Source: Leptolyngbyaceae cyanobacterium SL_7_1 (GTDB lineage Bacteria > Cyanobacteriota > Cyanobacteriia > Elainellales > Elainellaceae). From it: a stretch of 33,688 bases of DNA. The translations under genes were made by a program, and so were the position numbers. Below the pieces are notes generated by a model. That model had not been told where the DNA came from. It did not search any database and saw nothing but the letters and a program-made list of their open reading frames with translations. The stretch covers positions 1-33,688 of the forward strand of contig JAAUSV010000005.1 of assembly GCA_012032525.1 (NCBI GenBank). The letters are read 5' to 3'. Position 1 is the first letter of the stretch. Each line of letters opens with the position of its first letter. Shown here one piece after another: positions 21,240 through 33,182 of this stretch.

Positions 21240-23429
21240 GTGTCAAACTCAGCATCCAACATTCCCTCTGGAGATGTTATTTCCACTTCGGTAGATCCTA
21301 CTGTTGGCTCAGCGTTTGCTCAAGCATTTGATTCAATTGCTCTTAAGTCAGTCACTTCCAAATTGAAGAAGGCTCAAGAAGAATTGGAGTTACAAAAGCA
21401 GGCATCTCAACAATCTAGCAACTATATACAACAACTGTTGTGTGAGAAGCAGGAGTTGCAAAACCAAGTTGTAGAGCTTGAGCAATGTAATCTGGCTCTA
21501 ACTGAGCAATTAACAACTAAGAACACCGTTCTTACCAAGCTTCGTAGTCAACTCAACTCAATTAATCTGAATCGCGCCCGATTGATCAATGAGCTGCATC
21601 AGTCAAAAGAAAACTTAAGACAGCAGCTTCATAATAAACATCTTGAACTAAGCCAGCTTAGTCGTCAGCACAAGCGAGATTATAATCAGCTCAAACGACA
21701 AAATAATGAGTTGTCTCGATCGCTCAATCACTTGACTGAGGAGATACAGTACCTATCAACTGGTAAAGCTGCGATTCGAGGAATTATCAAAGCCATCCTT
21801 AGAAAGATTGGTATTTACAATTTCGTCTATCGGCGTTACCAGGTATTTGTTCCAGCTTACAATCTGTTGCTGCGCGATCGCTGGCAGCCCGCCACCATTG
21901 CAAAAAATGGCTTAAACTCTAAAATCCTTGAACCAGATGTCCTCAATCCAAATCAGGCTAGTAAGCAGAATAAACAGGCACTCAAGGTGCCTGTTAAAGT
22001 AGCAAGCGCTGAGGCTGTTGAAGAATTCTCAGAACAGATGATTCTCAACCCCACTATGGATTCCTCCTGGATTGAAGCGGTTGTTGTTGCGCGTGGATTG
22101 GGTTTAGAGCCGACTTTAGACCTAAAAAATCAGCAATTGACCCACCTGAGCGATTTAGTGGATAACCCTCAAACTGTTCTTTGCATTAATCCACCATGCC
22201 ATCTTCTGCCGTTACTACAGATCTGGAGAAAAAGAGGCACAGCAGTGACAGTGGTTGCCTGCACAAAACCCATCCAGGAACAACTCCGCTCATGGGAAAT
22301 TGAGGCTTTTACACGGAACCTGGGTCGGTGGATGATCGATTTCAGCAAAGCTGATCTCGTGGAATATGACGTTGTGTGTGTAGGAGAGCCGTTATTAGAA
22401 GATGTTACGACTCTATTTCAAGGGCGGCTATCAGCAAAGACTAGTGTGATACTTACACATGGTGGCGAGAGCGATCGTCAAAGCGATCGTCAATCGGAAC
22501 AAGCGCTATCCCAGTTACTGCAAGACCAGCCAGTACATGTTCGCGCTACCAACTTTTCCCTATACTCATCTCCACCCACGCTATGGGTAGCACCATTGCT
22601 CCAATCCCTTGTGGTTGAGGTGGATTTGCAATGGCCCTGGAATTATCCAGTTGTTAAGGCAACAGCCACACTACCCTCTGGCAACCCGTGGCCCAAGATT
22701 TCGATTGTAACTGTGACGCTTAACCAAGGACGGTATTTGGAGGAAACGTTGCGATCGGTCTTGATGCAAGGGTATCCAAATCTGGAATATATCATTCTTG
22801 ATGGCGGTTCTAAAGACGAAACCATCTCCATTTTGGAGCGGTATAGTAGCCAATTGGCTTACTGGGTCAGTGAGCCAGATAATGGTCAATCGAATGCATT
22901 AAACAAGGGTTTTGGCAAGGCAACGGGAGATATTTTGGCATGGCTCAATAGTGATGATTGCTATCCACCCCTGGCACTTCACCGAGTAGCGATCGCCTTT
23001 GATGCCTACCAAAGCGACATGGTAGTGGGAGGCTGTCAGCTCAGGAAAGGGAATTGCCCTGTCCCATTTACAACCCATCGCAGCGCCATTCCCGTTGGCA
23101 AGGTTGTTCCCCTCCCCCTCAATCGGTTGCTCGACTTGGAGGGGTGTTGGCAAACGGGCGAATTCTTTTATCAGCCTGAGGTATTTTGGACACGGGAATT
23201 GTGGCAGCGAGTTGGAGCAAGCCTAAATGAGGACATGTTTTACAGCATGGACTATGAATTGTGGCTACGTATGGCTCAGGCACAGGCAACAATGGTTCAC
23301 GTTCCGGATGTACTCGCTCTATATCGAGTCCATGAGCAGCAAAAAACCTATGGAGATGACTTACCTTTTCTGAAAGAATTGAGACAAATTAATAAACAGT
23401 TTCGGGAGCGGATTGTTAGTTCTAAATAG
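21240..23429 (+). CDS. Coiled-coil protein with C-terminal GT2 glycosyltransferase domain
   Basis: A 729-residue multidomain protein starting at GTG 21240 behind a strong GGGAGGAG (21227-21234). Residues about 36-175 are a long coiled coil. Residues 175-215 form a basic, partly hydrophobic segment ('GIIKAILRKIGIYNFVYRRY') that could lie on the membrane. Residues about 275-465 form an unassigned alpha/beta domain ('VLCINPPCHLLPLLQIW', 'VVCVGEPLLEDV') that may be a degenerate GT-B-like half. Residues 486-725 are a GT2 domain: 'KISIVTVTLNQGRYLEETL', 'YIILDGGSKDET', 'WVSEPDNGQSNALNKG' and DxD-equivalent 'LNSDD'. The C-terminal domain is confidently a transferase; the middle domain is not. It follows the GT4 gene by 21 bp. 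Confidence 0.85.
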   Translation: MSNSASNIPSGDVISTSVDPTVGSAFAQAFDSIALKSVTSKLKKAQEELELQKQASQQSSNYIQQLLCEKQELQNQVVELEQCNLALTEQLTTKNTVLTKLRSQLNSINLNRARLINELHQSKENLRQQLHNKHLELSQLSRQHKRDYNQLKRQNNELSRSLNHLTEEIQYLSTGKAAIRGIIKAILRKIGIYNFVYRRYQVFVPAYNLLLRDRWQPATIAKNGLNSKILEPDVLNPNQASKQNKQALKVPVKVASAEAVEEFSEQMILNPTMDSSWIEAVVVARGLGLEPTLDLKNQQLTHLSDLVDNPQTVLCINPPCHLLPLLQIWRKRGTAVTVVACTKPIQEQLRSWEIEAFTRNLGRWMIDFSKADLVEYDVVCVGEPLLEDVTTLFQGRLSAKTSVILTHGGESDRQSDRQSEQALSQLLQDQPVHVRATNFSLYSSPPTLWVAPLLQSLVVEVDLQWPWNYPVVKATATLPSGNPWPKISIVTVTLNQGRYLEETLRSVLMQGYPNLEYIILDGGSKDETISILERYSSQLAYWVSEPDNGQSNALNKGFGKATGDILAWLNSDDCYPPLALHRVAIAFDAYQSDMVVGGCQLRKGNCPVPFTTHRSAIPVGKVVPLPLNRLLDLEGCWQTGEFFYQPEVFWTRELWQRVGASLNEDMFYSMDYELWLRMAQAQATMVHVPDVLALYRVHEQQKTYGDDLPFLKELRQINKQFRERIVSSK

Positions 23430-28703: not shown

Positions 28704-29624
28704 GTGTCTGTGACTCAAACGTTTGTCAACTCAGAACACACCTCCATTTTTGAGCGCACAAAACACCTACCAGGGTGGCAAGAACCGGGAGATTCCTTCA
28801 AGCTCTATGAGATGGGGTATCAAGCGGGGGATGTGATTTTGGAGATCGGCACGTTTGGCGGACGATCGGCAGTCGTAGAACTGCGTGGGGCATTGGCAAA
28901 TCTCGATCGCACCCACCCCCAGTTTTATGGAATTGACGTTGATATTCAAAGTATTCAGCGTACGGCTAATACCCTAAGGGAAGCAAAGCTCGATGAATAT
29001 GCCCTGCTCCACTACGGCACATTAGAAACCTTTCTTCAAGAATTTTCGATTCAACCCACCATGGTGTTTGTGGATGGCGATCATCGCTATGGGGGTGTCA
29101 AGCGGGACTTGGAACTGTTGACCAATGTCCTTACCCCTGGAACGCCGATGCTCTGTCATGACTACATGAATCCCGAAAACGACACAGGAGAAATGGGGGT
29201 GCGTCAGGCGGTCCTGGAATTTGTTGAAGCTGGTTATGCCGAGCTGATTGGTACATTTGGCTGCTCAGCCTTTTTGATTACGTCGGCTCGTTGTCAAGGT
29301 ATCCCGAAAGCAAAGCCTGCTGCAACCGACTTTACCCAGCAGAAGCAGCGATCGCTCGAAGCAGTGAACACATGGTTGTATCGCACATGGCAGGAGTGTG
29401 AATCTGATCGGGCAGCGCGGCTCGATGCCATTCACCAGTTGCAACAGCAGTTGCATCAAGCATTTTCCGAGTTAGATAAGGCGCAACGCCAGTTACAAGG
29501 GACGCAGGCAAAAGTAGCCGCTCGTGAAGCGAGAATTGCAGCCATGGAAAGTAGTAAGTTTTGGCAACTGCGATCGACTTGGTTTAAGATAAAGCGTGTT
29601 GTCGGGCTGGGTCAAAACGAATGA
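28704..29624 (+). CDS. Class I methyltransferase with coiled-coil and SSKFWQLR tail
   Basis: A 306-residue protein starting at GTG 28704, with GAGG (28691-28694) nine bases upstream. Residues about 30-200 form a SAM methyltransferase of the methyltransferase-24/CmcI-like type: 'VILEIGTFGGRSAVVELRG', 'FYGIDVDIQSI', 'MVFVDGDHRYGGVKRDLELL' and 'MLCHDYMNPEND'. Residues about 235-280 are a coiled coil, and the last 26 residues carry 'MESSKFWQLRSTWFKIKR'. The same tail ends the next gene's product. The tail may tether the enzyme to a membrane or partner; this is inference. The context suggests sugar O-methylation. Confidence 0.82.
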   Translation: MSVTQTFVNSEHTSIFERTKHLPGWQEPGDSFKLYEMGYQAGDVILEIGTFGGRSAVVELRGALANLDRTHPQFYGIDVDIQSIQRTANTLREAKLDEYALLHYGTLETFLQEFSIQPTMVFVDGDHRYGGVKRDLELLTNVLTPGTPMLCHDYMNPENDTGEMGVRQAVLEFVEAGYAELIGTFGCSAFLITSARCQGIPKAKPAATDFTQQKQRSLEAVNTWLYRTWQECESDRAARLDAIHQLQQQLHQAFSELDKAQRQLQGTQAKVAAREARIAAMESSKFWQLRSTWFKIKRVVGLGQNE

Positions 29625-29651
29625 TTGATTGACAACAATTGATTGACAACA
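29624..29651. repeat. 14-bp perfect tandem duplication
   Basis: ATTGATTGACAACA occurs twice in direct succession (29624-29637 and 29638-29651), beginning on the last base of the methyltransferase stop and ending just before the ribosome site of the next gene. It lengthens the intergenic spacer. Confidence 0.9.
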
Positions 29652-29666
29652 AGAGGCATTTTTAAT

Positions 29667-30614
29667 GTGAAAGTTTCAGTCATTACGGTTTGCAAAAACT
29701 CAGAGAAAACCCTTGAACGTACAATTCGAGGGGTAGTTCAACAAACCTATACTGACTTGGAATATATCATTATTGATGGGGCATCAGAAGACAATACCAA
29801 CGCCATTATTTCCCAATATCGAGCACACATTCAGGATTGGGTGAGTGAGCCTGATGGTGGCATTTATCAAGCCATGAATAAAGGAATTCAACGAGCCACG
29901 GGTTGCTTTATTTATTTCTCCAATTCAGATGACTATTTATTTGATGAACGAGTGATTCAAGATTTAGTTGAGTTTGCCACAACTCACAGAGACTGCGATC
30001 TAATCTATGGAGATCACGAAGCCCGATTTCTAGATAATAATGCTTCGATCCATCAACCTATGCCGCCAGAGTTGCTCTTAGGCGAAATGGTGGAGTTGGG
30101 CGATCGCCGCATTCATCAACCTGCTAGTTTTTTTCGGAAAGAGTTGTTCGATCGCCTGGGCTTGTTTGACGAAACCTACCGCATTGCCTCTGACTATAAA
30201 TGGTTTCTTCGCGCCCTCCAAGACTCCACCGTGAAAGTTTGCTACTACCCTCGAACGATCGTTTCCTATGCCCATGGTGGCGCATCCGCTAATATCCGGC
30301 AGTTATTTGATGAAGTCTTTGAGATCCAGAGTCAATGTGCTGCGCTGCAAGAAATCGCCTGGTTACAAAAAAGAATCACTCGATTTCAACACCTCTATAT
30401 CCAGCAGCTTGAGACAATTCAAAAACAGCAACAGGCGATCGCCAAACGTCGCGATCGCATTCGGACATTGGAGACCCAACTGGCAAATTCCGATGCCATG
30501 ATTCTGGATCTACACCAAAAAATTGAACTGATGCGATCGAGCAAATTTTGGCAATTGCGGACGGCTTGGGTTGAGATCAAACAAACCCTAAAGTCGATCG
30601 CACAAAATCGTTAG
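29667..30614 (+). CDS. GT2 glycosyltransferase with coiled-coil and SSKFWQLR tail
   Basis: A 315-residue product from GTG 29667 (MKVSVITVCKNSEKTLERTI), with GAGG at 29653-29656. An upstream TTG at 29643 lies inside the tandem repeat and is less likely. The GT2 domain covers about residues 1-215: 'YIIIDGASEDNTNAI', 'WVSEPDGGIYQAMNKGIQRA' and DxD-equivalent 'FSNSDD', with 'RIHQPASFFRKELFDRLGLF' as in WcaA/SpsA-like transferases. Residues about 225-288 are a coiled coil. The protein ends 'MRSSKFWQLRTAWVEIKQ', matching the end of the preceding methyltransferase. The two genes are 42 bp apart and probably co-transcribed. Confidence 0.88.
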   Translation: MKVSVITVCKNSEKTLERTIRGVVQQTYTDLEYIIIDGASEDNTNAIISQYRAHIQDWVSEPDGGIYQAMNKGIQRATGCFIYFSNSDDYLFDERVIQDLVEFATTHRDCDLIYGDHEARFLDNNASIHQPMPPELLLGEMVELGDRRIHQPASFFRKELFDRLGLFDETYRIASDYKWFLRALQDSTVKVCYYPRTIVSYAHGGASANIRQLFDEVFEIQSQCAALQEIAWLQKRITRFQHLYIQQLETIQKQQQAIAKRRDRIRTLETQLANSDAMILDLHQKIELMRSSKFWQLRTAWVEIKQTLKSIAQNR

Positions 30615-30703: not shown

Positions 30704-33182
30704 ATGCCATCCCTCCTCAACGACCCTCAGTGGGTAGAAATTCGCTCATTCCTGACGCACCACACCCAGTCATCAAGCGCCATTCTGGCGCCCAACGAAT
30801 TACTAGCGATCTTTCCAGGAGTCTATCCCTACAACGTCACCTACACCCTCCCCGCCCAGCAGTTTGATGTTGTAGTGTTCCACAAAGCCATGCTAGGGGA
30901 AGTCGATCGCGCCTTTGGTCAGGCAGTATTGCGGCAATTTCGTCCTGCCTTTAGCAACGACGTGTTTGTGGTGTTTGCCAAAACCCCGCCTCCCCGGTTG
31001 ATTCCGCCAGAGTTGCCCCTCATCCAACTAGTGCGCGATCGCTTCTTAGAAGGGGAATCTCGCCCCCCAGCCACCAATACCCCGTGGGGTATTGTCATTG
31101 TTACCCGCAACTCTCCAACAAGCTTGGCGCGATCGCTCCCTGGGATTGCCGCGTTAGGAGCGGACATGGTTGTGGTAGACACCGGGTCAGCAGCGGCGAC
31201 CCACCAGGAAAATCGGGCATTGGCGAGTCAGTACAATGCCACAGTGTTACATCTGCCAGACGATCGCGGCAATCCCTATGCGCTCACGGTGGGGGTGGGG
31301 TATTGGTTGTCTAGAGCCGAGGTCGGCTGGATTTCCTGCTTTCGGGACGATGTGGAGGTGCATCCTGAGTTGCTGACGGTGTTTGAGTCAATTCAGCAGG
31401 CTGAGCAGCGTCCCCTGCTCACCGGGTATGATGCCAAGGAGCATCCAGTGGTTGCTTCCCAGTCGATCGCGGGCTTCACCGTGTTGACCAAGCGATCGAC
31501 CTCTGGAGTGCATCTACATGCCCACCGGGATTATTGGGCGGGGGTGCTTCCCATTCCCACCCCCACCCTCAGTGCCGAGCAACGCGCCACCGGACGGGGA
31601 ACCGAGGAGGATTGGTGGATCACAGCATGGTCGCCCCGATCGATTACAAAACGAGGGGGATATGTGATTTGCCTTCCCCACCTAGTGCGTCCATGGGGGG
31701 AGGCAACGCCGTCGTGGGGTGCGTCGCGCCAGCCCCCAACCGCCCCAACGCCGTCCGCGATGGCAGAATCGGTCGTAATGCCTGCTGGTGTCAGCCAACC
31801 CGCGATCGCCCCTCCCGCGATCGCCCCTCCCATGGTGCCCGATGCAGGGCTGTCTAACGCGCCAAAGCAAGCAGCGGCGCCCCCCCCGCCTAGCTCCGGT
31901 CAAAATTTTGGTGGACGGCTACAATCTGCAACTGACATCGGGGACGGGCATCAAAACCTACAGCACGAGCTTGATCAAAGCCTTGAACCGACTGGGTGCT
32001 CACGTGGACGTATTACTGAGCCGCAATGCCTCCAAGGTCAATGATGTCTTGGATGAAGTGCTATTTTTTGATAATCAGGAGCGCGATCGCAATCTTCTCC
32101 TGGATGTATTGGATGTCTCTAAAGGGTTAATTAAAACCTCCCTGGGACCACTCTACCAAGCTAAGCGGCGAAGAAAACCAGGCAACTTTGTCGTGAAACA
32201 GGGCAAATTTAGCGATGAATTTCTCAAATATGCAGAATCATTCAACCTGCCCCGTTGCTACGATACCGCCAATATCTTGTATAAAAAGCTGCGCTACACC
32301 TCCCACCTCTACACATCCGAAAAGATCGATATTTGGCACGCTACCTATCCCCTACCCATCCACATCCGGGGAGCGAAAAAAATTACCACCGTACACGATC
32401 TGATTCCCCTGCGATTGCCCTATGCCACGCTAGATAACAAAGAAGATTTCTACTTCAAAGTCCGAGATGCCCTAGAGCAATCGGATTTAGTCATCACCGT
32501 TTCAGAACACTCCAAGCAAGATTTGCTGGAGTATTTTGACGCCGATCCCGACAAAATTGCCGTCACCTACCAGCCGATCGCCCTCGATCAGGAATTGGCG
32601 GATGCTGGGGAATTGCAGAAGTTTCTCAAGCAATACAACTTGAACGCGCAGCAATATTGGTTGTTTGTGGGGGCGATCGAGCCTAAAAAGAATGTGGGTC
32701 GCCTGCTCGACGCCTACGCCCGTTTGGATACGGAATTTCCACTGGTGATTGTTGGCAAAAAAGGCTGGCTCTGGCAAGAGGAACTGAGCAAAATTGGCTA
32801 TCTCAGCGAAACTAGCTCCAAAAAACGGGTCAAGCTGCTCGAATACGTCCCTGCCCTCAGCTTGCAGTATCTCTACCAAGGTGCCTATGCATTGGTGTTT
32901 CCCTCGCTATACGAGGGATTTGGCTTGCCTCCCCTAGAAGCCATGACCTTTGGCTGTCCAGTAATTACCTCACAAATTTCCAGTTTGCCGGAGGTCTGCG
33001 GTAGCGCTGCCCTCTACGTTGATCCCTACGATGTTGACCACATCAAACAACAACTGGAAGCCCTGCTGAGTAGCCCAGAATTACGCAATCAATTGGCGAT
33101 CGACGGCAAAGTTAATGCGGCATTTTTTAGCATGGAAAACTACATGCAGCGACTTCACGCCGCCTATGAGAAAGTGTTGTAG
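30704..33182 (+). CDS. Probable GT2-GT4 fusion glycosyltransferase, frame broken at a C8 tract
   Basis: The first frame (30704-32044) encodes a GT-A/GT2-like domain: '[20 protein letters not shown]', '[20 protein letters not shown]', DxD-type '[10 protein letters not shown]' and '[10 protein letters not shown]'. It is followed by a Pro/Ala-rich linker with a duplicated PAIAP. It then loses sense after 'APPPPSS'. A second frame, open from 31788 to 33182, carries a complete GT4: '[22 protein letters not shown]', '[16 protein letters not shown]', '[18 protein letters not shown]' and EX7E region '[19 protein letters not shown]'. Its first conserved residue has no start codon or ribosome site. Removing one C from the C8 run at 31880-31887 yields one protein of 825 residues. 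If the genes are truly separate, ATG 31842 is the best start for the second. Confidence 0.8.
31801..31830. repeat. 15-bp tandem repeat carrying HIP1
   Basis: CGCGATCGCCCCTCC occurs twice in tandem. Each unit contains the HIP1 octamer GCGATCGC. In the first frame it encodes PAIAP twice, in the linker between the two transferase domains. Confidence 0.9.

Follow-up and report, generated by a model that had tools for sequence, protein, structure and literature searches.

A conserved tail behind a coiled coil on cyanobacterial glycan enzymes of several folds, and its possible role as a docking foot

A methyltransferase (P0001) and a GT2 glycosyltransferase (P0002), encoded by neighbouring genes in a 33,688-nucleotide stretch of cyanobacterial DNA (the whole of which is called the window here), end in the same short motif behind a coiled coil. 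That motif, the SSKFW tail, is apparently a widespread, strongly conserved and so far unnamed docking module. The reading favoured here, to which we give a probability of about 0.55, is that the tail forms the membrane-proximal docking foot of a coiled-coil stalk on surface-glycan enzymes. To the tail itself, which a first-pass annotation of this DNA had noticed, the present analysis adds a link to Wzt-type ABC exporters, an architecture like that of WbdD and WbbB, a counterpart in other phyla, and stand-alone proteins made of coil and tail.

What is known of the gathering of soluble glycan enzymes at the membrane, and of the measuring of chain length, comes chiefly from a small number of enterobacterial O-antigens. 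A conserved tail with a counterpart in other phyla lets terminators and assembly complexes be sought by sequence, and it makes the scaffold idea directly testable for cyanobacterial surface polysaccharides, the late assembly steps of which are poorly known.

The two tailed enzymes of the window

Domain models assign the catalytic part of P0001 to Methyltransf_24 (8e-17) and that of P0002 to Glycos_transf_2 (8e-24), in keeping with the first-pass annotation, which had described the two as enzymes without a common fold; the top Foldseek match of P0002 is the WrtF fucosyltransferase, a GT2-like structure. For the catalytic domain of P0001 (28704-29300), 292 cyanobacterial genomes yielded no homologue at E <= 1e-15, and the sequence suggests a near-consensus tail joined to an unusual enzyme. 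P0001 ends in ...AAMESSKFWQLRSTWFKIKRVVGLGQNE and P0002, up to its stop at 30614, in ...ELMRSSKFWQLRTAWVEIKQTLKSIAQNR; the pattern M-x-SSKFWQLR-x2-W-x2-IK, which had been read after a coil at the end of both proteins, is matched exactly in each. Within their own genome the two window tails are found by the tail profile at E = 3.9e-16 and 5.2e-14, so that their likeness lies far above chance. The pair fits the definition of an SSKFW[KQ]LR module (Table 1): each tail matches the profile, follows a coil and lies close to the end of its protein or to a module boundary. A known domain is ruled out, since no model in Pfam or NCBIfam covers the tail of P0001 or P0002 and the tail profile has no match among PDB chains.

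Table 1. Genes of the two tailed enzymes and their coil and tail parts (positions in the window)
Feature	Position	Strand	Remarks
P0001, methyltransferase, Methyltransf_24-type, C-terminal coil and tail	28704..29624	+	306 aa
Predicted coiled-coil helix of P0001, residues 210-283	29331..29552	+	AlphaFold2, heptad register
P0001 tail, MESSKFWQLRSTWFKIKRVVGLGQNE	29544..29621	+	break at second Ser, then helix 285-299
P0002, GT2 glycosyltransferase, C-terminal coil and tail	29643..30614	+	start TTG 29643 or GTG 29667
Predicted coiled-coil helix of P0002, residues 230-291	30354..30539	+	AlphaFold2, pLDDT about 81-98
P0002 tail, MRSSKFWQLRTAWVEIKQTLKSIAQNR	30531..30611	+	break at second Ser (residue 292), then helix 293-314

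A similar plan had also been seen in the protein at 21240. That likeness did not survive: the SSKFW motif is absent from this protein, and none of the 292 cyanobacterial genomes holds a relative of its basic segment at E <= 0.01, which excludes it as a third case of the module.

Distribution and position of the tail

When the 28-residue tail served as query, 65 of 292 cyanobacterial genomes (43 of 116 genera) proved to carry it, and with a profile 46 of 189 (36 of 94 genera), the genomes sampled being related by descent. By profile, 117 tail proteins were collected from 80 genomic stretches, here called loci; 23 of the 46 positive genomes have a single tail match each. The enzymes that bear the tail comprise GT2 and GT4/GT1 glycosyltransferases, many families of methyltransferase including FkbM, and Sulfotransfer_3. 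The belief that similar tails occur on other cyanobacterial glycan enzymes was thus well founded, and the motif search that had been proposed across the phylum, with fused domains and gene neighbourhoods, revealed a widespread tail on several folds with Wzt_C genes among its neighbours.

In 93 of the 117 proteins no more than 20 residues follow the tail. Its consensus reads IxAMESSKFWKLRxxWFxLKxxLGL, and in the C-terminal set the Ser, Lys, Phe, Arg, Trp and Lys positions are at least 90% conserved. A third tail protein of the window's own genome is a methyltransferase at G000:C282:4523-4597 (L110:4517-5629), surrounded by genes that do not resemble a glycan locus. Near the C-terminus of one protein of 1042 residues (L053:7547-10672) stand two complete tails, separated by about 50 residues. 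A viral origin of the tail is without support, as a profile search of viral contigs (IMG/VR) gave no confirmed match; the tail strings led to no relevant paper in the open-access literature searched.

Besides C-termini, the tail is found between enzyme modules, at N-termini and on small proteins that otherwise contain only a coil. Internal tails stand after a methyltransferase or sulfotransferase and its coil, and before GT2 or GT4 modules, in L072, L075, L084, L090, L098 and L099; the internal-tail proteins of L085 and L100 have a GT on each side, only downstream GTs are visible in that of L082, and in L082 and L056 the tail lies close to the N-terminus. The nearest relatives of the window glycosyltransferase (49% identical; L083 and L089) keep the coil and lack the tail. 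Small proteins of coil and tail, with no recognisable catalytic domain, are encoded at L083:12568-13185 (206 aa), L089:8695-9093 (133 aa) and L044:9623-10174 (184 aa), and their similar N-termini give them the look of genuine genes, not of fragments. The start of the one in L089 overlaps the end of a weakly sulfotransferase-like gene.

Anatomy of coil and tail

Hydrophobic positions recur upstream of the tail tryptophan (W0) at -6, -9, -13, -16, -20 and -23 and onward to about -58. In 112 proteins this a/d heptad keeps a fixed register relative to W0 (R = 0.88, Rayleigh about 1e-38), while the coils of tail proteins are only 12% identical in pairwise comparison, a combination that argues for constraint and against recent copying. 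At Ser-Ser the register skips one residue, passing from -6 to -1 instead of -2 and going on in a new frame of -1, 2, 6, 9 and 13; proline is nearly absent from -22 to +11, which points to a single helix that is almost continuous apart from the skipped residue at SSK. When P0001 and P0002 were modelled separately with AlphaFold2, the two helices of P0002 were predicted with a pLDDT of 94 and those of P0001 with local values of about 77-90, the latter in a model with an overall pLDDT of 60 that is poor outside coil and tail. In both proteins the predicted helix break falls on the second Ser of SSK, the very point of the register skip, and heptad register and modelled helices together predict an extended coiled coil in each.

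The aromatic or aliphatic positions of the tail are F-1, W0, L+2, W+6, F+7, L+9 and L+13, flanked by Lys and Arg, and the mean net charge of tail 18-mers is +5.4. A HeliQuest-style threshold for lipid-binding helices is passed by 114 of 116 tail 18-mers and by 2.4% of background stretches. The helical hydrophobic moment is 0.36, against 0.275 for shuffles, with no tail below p = 0.05; this is a modest excess, so that the case for lipid binding rests mainly on charge and aromatics.

Neighbourhood of Wzt-type exporters

Wzt_C is the carbohydrate-binding end of polysaccharide ABC exporters, which recognise the completed glycan. A strong Wzt_C gene lies within 5 kb of 30 of the 80 tail loci, where random placement would give about 0.33; loci truncated at the end of a contig escape this count. 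A tail is nearby for 30 of 61 strong Wzt_C genes; at the level of genomes the co-occurrence of the two has an odds ratio of 21, uncorrected for relatedness. ABC2_membrane and Wzt_C are frequent near tails and are not among the top families in random stretches of the same genomes. When ten tail proteins were sampled from Wzt_C loci, nine proved to have methyltransferase and/or sulfotransferase domains and one was a GT2.

Fifty of the 80 loci, the window included, have no strong Wzt_C nearby, and a transporter-linked role can therefore not be claimed for all tails. No exporter gene was seen on the 33.7 kb contig of the window, and the sole Wzt_C match in its genome is weak and on another contig. 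Two or more tails occur in 28 of the 80 loci, which together hold 65 of the 117 tails; in several loci they sit on three or four different enzymes, not all of which can be terminators.

Comparison with known chain terminators

According to the parts of PMC11231755 and PMC3482155 on which this comparison draws, WbdD of E. coli O9a and Klebsiella O3 has a methyltransferase head, a C-terminal coiled coil and, at its C-terminal end, a membrane-associated amphipathic helix, and its pathway includes a Wzt with a carbohydrate-binding domain; the C-terminal region of WbdD recruits WbdA (PMC3482155). P0001 resembles it in its methyltransferase head and C-terminal coil and differs in having no kinase domain, a coil of about 74 residues and no Wzt seen on its contig. 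In the same parts of PMC11231755, ORF6 of Klebsiella O7 has a head fused via a coil to GT modules, and cyanobacterial orthologues of its N-terminal part. The cyanobacterial proteins with internal tails are like WbbB (Klebsiella O12) and ORF6, both of them fusions of terminator, coil and polymerase, in their order of methyltransferase or sulfotransferase, coil, tail and GT; the SSKFW tail, however, is not described in those parts of PMC11231755, and several tail loci spread the tail over many separate enzymes.

In order and neighbourhood, then, the cyanobacterial module matches the WbdD/ORF6 plan, and the tail is for that reason read as the membrane-proximal foot of a stalk. Membership of the WbdD/WbbB type is not claimed for the window pair, since its contig has no exporter and its terminating activity is putative. 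The GT2 enzymes TarP and TarS likewise have a catalytic domain followed by a C-terminal region, with a role in trimers, but that region is not a coil with a basic Trp tail.

A counterpart in other phyla

Similar enzymes of Proteobacteria carry, at their end or internally, a tail of the form SxSWRLTAPLR, which is also present in records labelled Actinobacteria, Terriglobia and Treponema. Like the SSKFW tail it follows a coil, keeps the frame W, L+2, L+6/W+6, L+9 and L+13, is carried by similar enzyme folds and has ABC2_membrane and Wzt_C among its neighbours; it differs by Thr-Ala-Pro after Trp-Arg-Leu and by a lower charge. The heptad phase of the coil relative to the Trp is the same in both sets (-121 versus -127 degrees); the way in which the SxSWRLTAPLR set was found biases its signature columns, and those of the coil much less. 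A comparison of the two tail profiles gave an ungapped match of 26 columns with a probability of only 53.6%.

The two versions hardly overlap between phyla. The cyanobacterial tail was found in 0 of 20 genomes that carry the SxSWRLTAPLR version. Among 146 cyanobacterial genomes a single one matches the SxSWRLTAPLR profile, and only weakly; in one proteobacterial phylum 29 of 150 genomes match it at E <= 0.01, some with weak scores. A tblastn search of plasmids with SWRLTAPLR at E <= 1 gave no match. The signature S-x-S-W-R-L-T-x-P-L-R is absent from the window tails, which, to judge by their sequences, may work like SxSWRLTAPLR tails and are not filed as members of that family. GT2 relatives from another class of the same phylum (L231, L232, L235, L238 and L242) end roughly in IFSIKN..HKIITILGIHIKIK, which may be a third lineage-specific type of tail.

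Possible function of the tail

The docking foot is supported by the conservation of the tail, the lock of the register, the predicted helix break, the spread over folds, the linkage to Wzt and the order of domains. On this reading we infer that tail proteins oligomerise, dock at the membrane and act as rulers. Enzymes that build or cap surface polysaccharides would oligomerise via the coiled-coil stalk; at the conserved Ser-Ser, where the hydrophobic register skips a residue, a separate short helix would begin, and this foot would dock at the inner membrane or assembly site, on lipid, protein or both, so holding the catalytic heads at a set distance. In many loci the head is a methyltransferase or sulfotransferase that has as its neighbour a Wzt bearing a carbohydrate-binding domain at the C-terminus, or that coil and tail join to GT polymerase modules. 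In these loci it most likely acts as a coiled-coil chain terminator and ruler of the WbdD/WbbB type, for ABC-transporter-dependent glycans; since many loci have several tailed enzymes, docking and scaffolding are probably the wider role, with a ruler function in a subset. The window pair would likely dock together, as a capping methyltransferase and a GT belonging to the same glycan locus.

The earlier suggestion that the tail docks on a membrane or holds a complex together stands insofar as docking or scaffolding is the best reading; its membrane part is qualified by the unexceptional hydrophobic moment, and strict conservation suggests a specific receptor. As far as sequence can indicate that receptor, charge favours lipid, and strict conservation together with phylum-specific versions favours protein. 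Tentatively, and with some doubt, the module may be seen as a phylum-specific address label, a coil of fixed register with a Trp/basic foot on any fold or on in-trans adaptors, that would recruit a whole assembly line to one membrane receptor; its versions would be SSKFWxLR in cyanobacteria and SWRLTAPLR elsewhere, with the stand-alone coil and tail proteins as the adaptors.

A serious though unlikely alternative to the docking foot is that the tail is a sequence-specific peptide which binds one lineage-wide protein receptor (an exporter subunit, a polymerase or a priming enzyme), membrane contact being incidental. The recruitment of WbdA by WbdD (PMC3482155) would agree with it. A generic membrane helix would not need as many as the seven or so near-invariant residues of the tail. 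Across unrelated enzymes K, F, W, R, W and K are conserved at about 90% or more, and the small overlap of the SSKFW and SWRLTAPLR versions by phylum is expected if each fits its own receptor. However, tails occur both with and without Wzt nearby, so that no single partner is evident, and their strong positive charge with exposed aromatics, a combination typical of membrane-interface helices, points to the membrane.

The docking foot is also to be weighed against an oligomerisation cap, in which like or unlike tails would pack as a short helical bundle, seal the coil and hold the enzymes of a pathway together. Heptad-like spacing within the tail and the loci with two or more tails would suit such a cap, which is nevertheless improbable: the genomes with a single match (23 of 46) indicate that a different tail enzyme is not required, and tails in several separate loci of one genome speak against pathway specificity.

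There is next to no chance that the shared tail is merely a local gene duplication or gene conversion of the 3' end, the outcome named in the first-pass annotation as fatal to its proposal and one that the adjacency of the two genes on the same strand might invite, because the tail is present across the phylum (65 of 292 genomes, 43 of 116 genera) and, of the 13 residues common to both window tails, ten have alternative codons and seven of these ten differ in codon (including a Ser encoded by AGT in one and TCG in the other), a divergence that fits long purifying selection and not a recent copy.

Beyond the pair, the ORFs at 30704-32044 (a weak GT2) and 31788-33182 (GT-like) overlap by about 250 bases via a proline-rich stretch, possibly through a wrong boundary or a frameshift.
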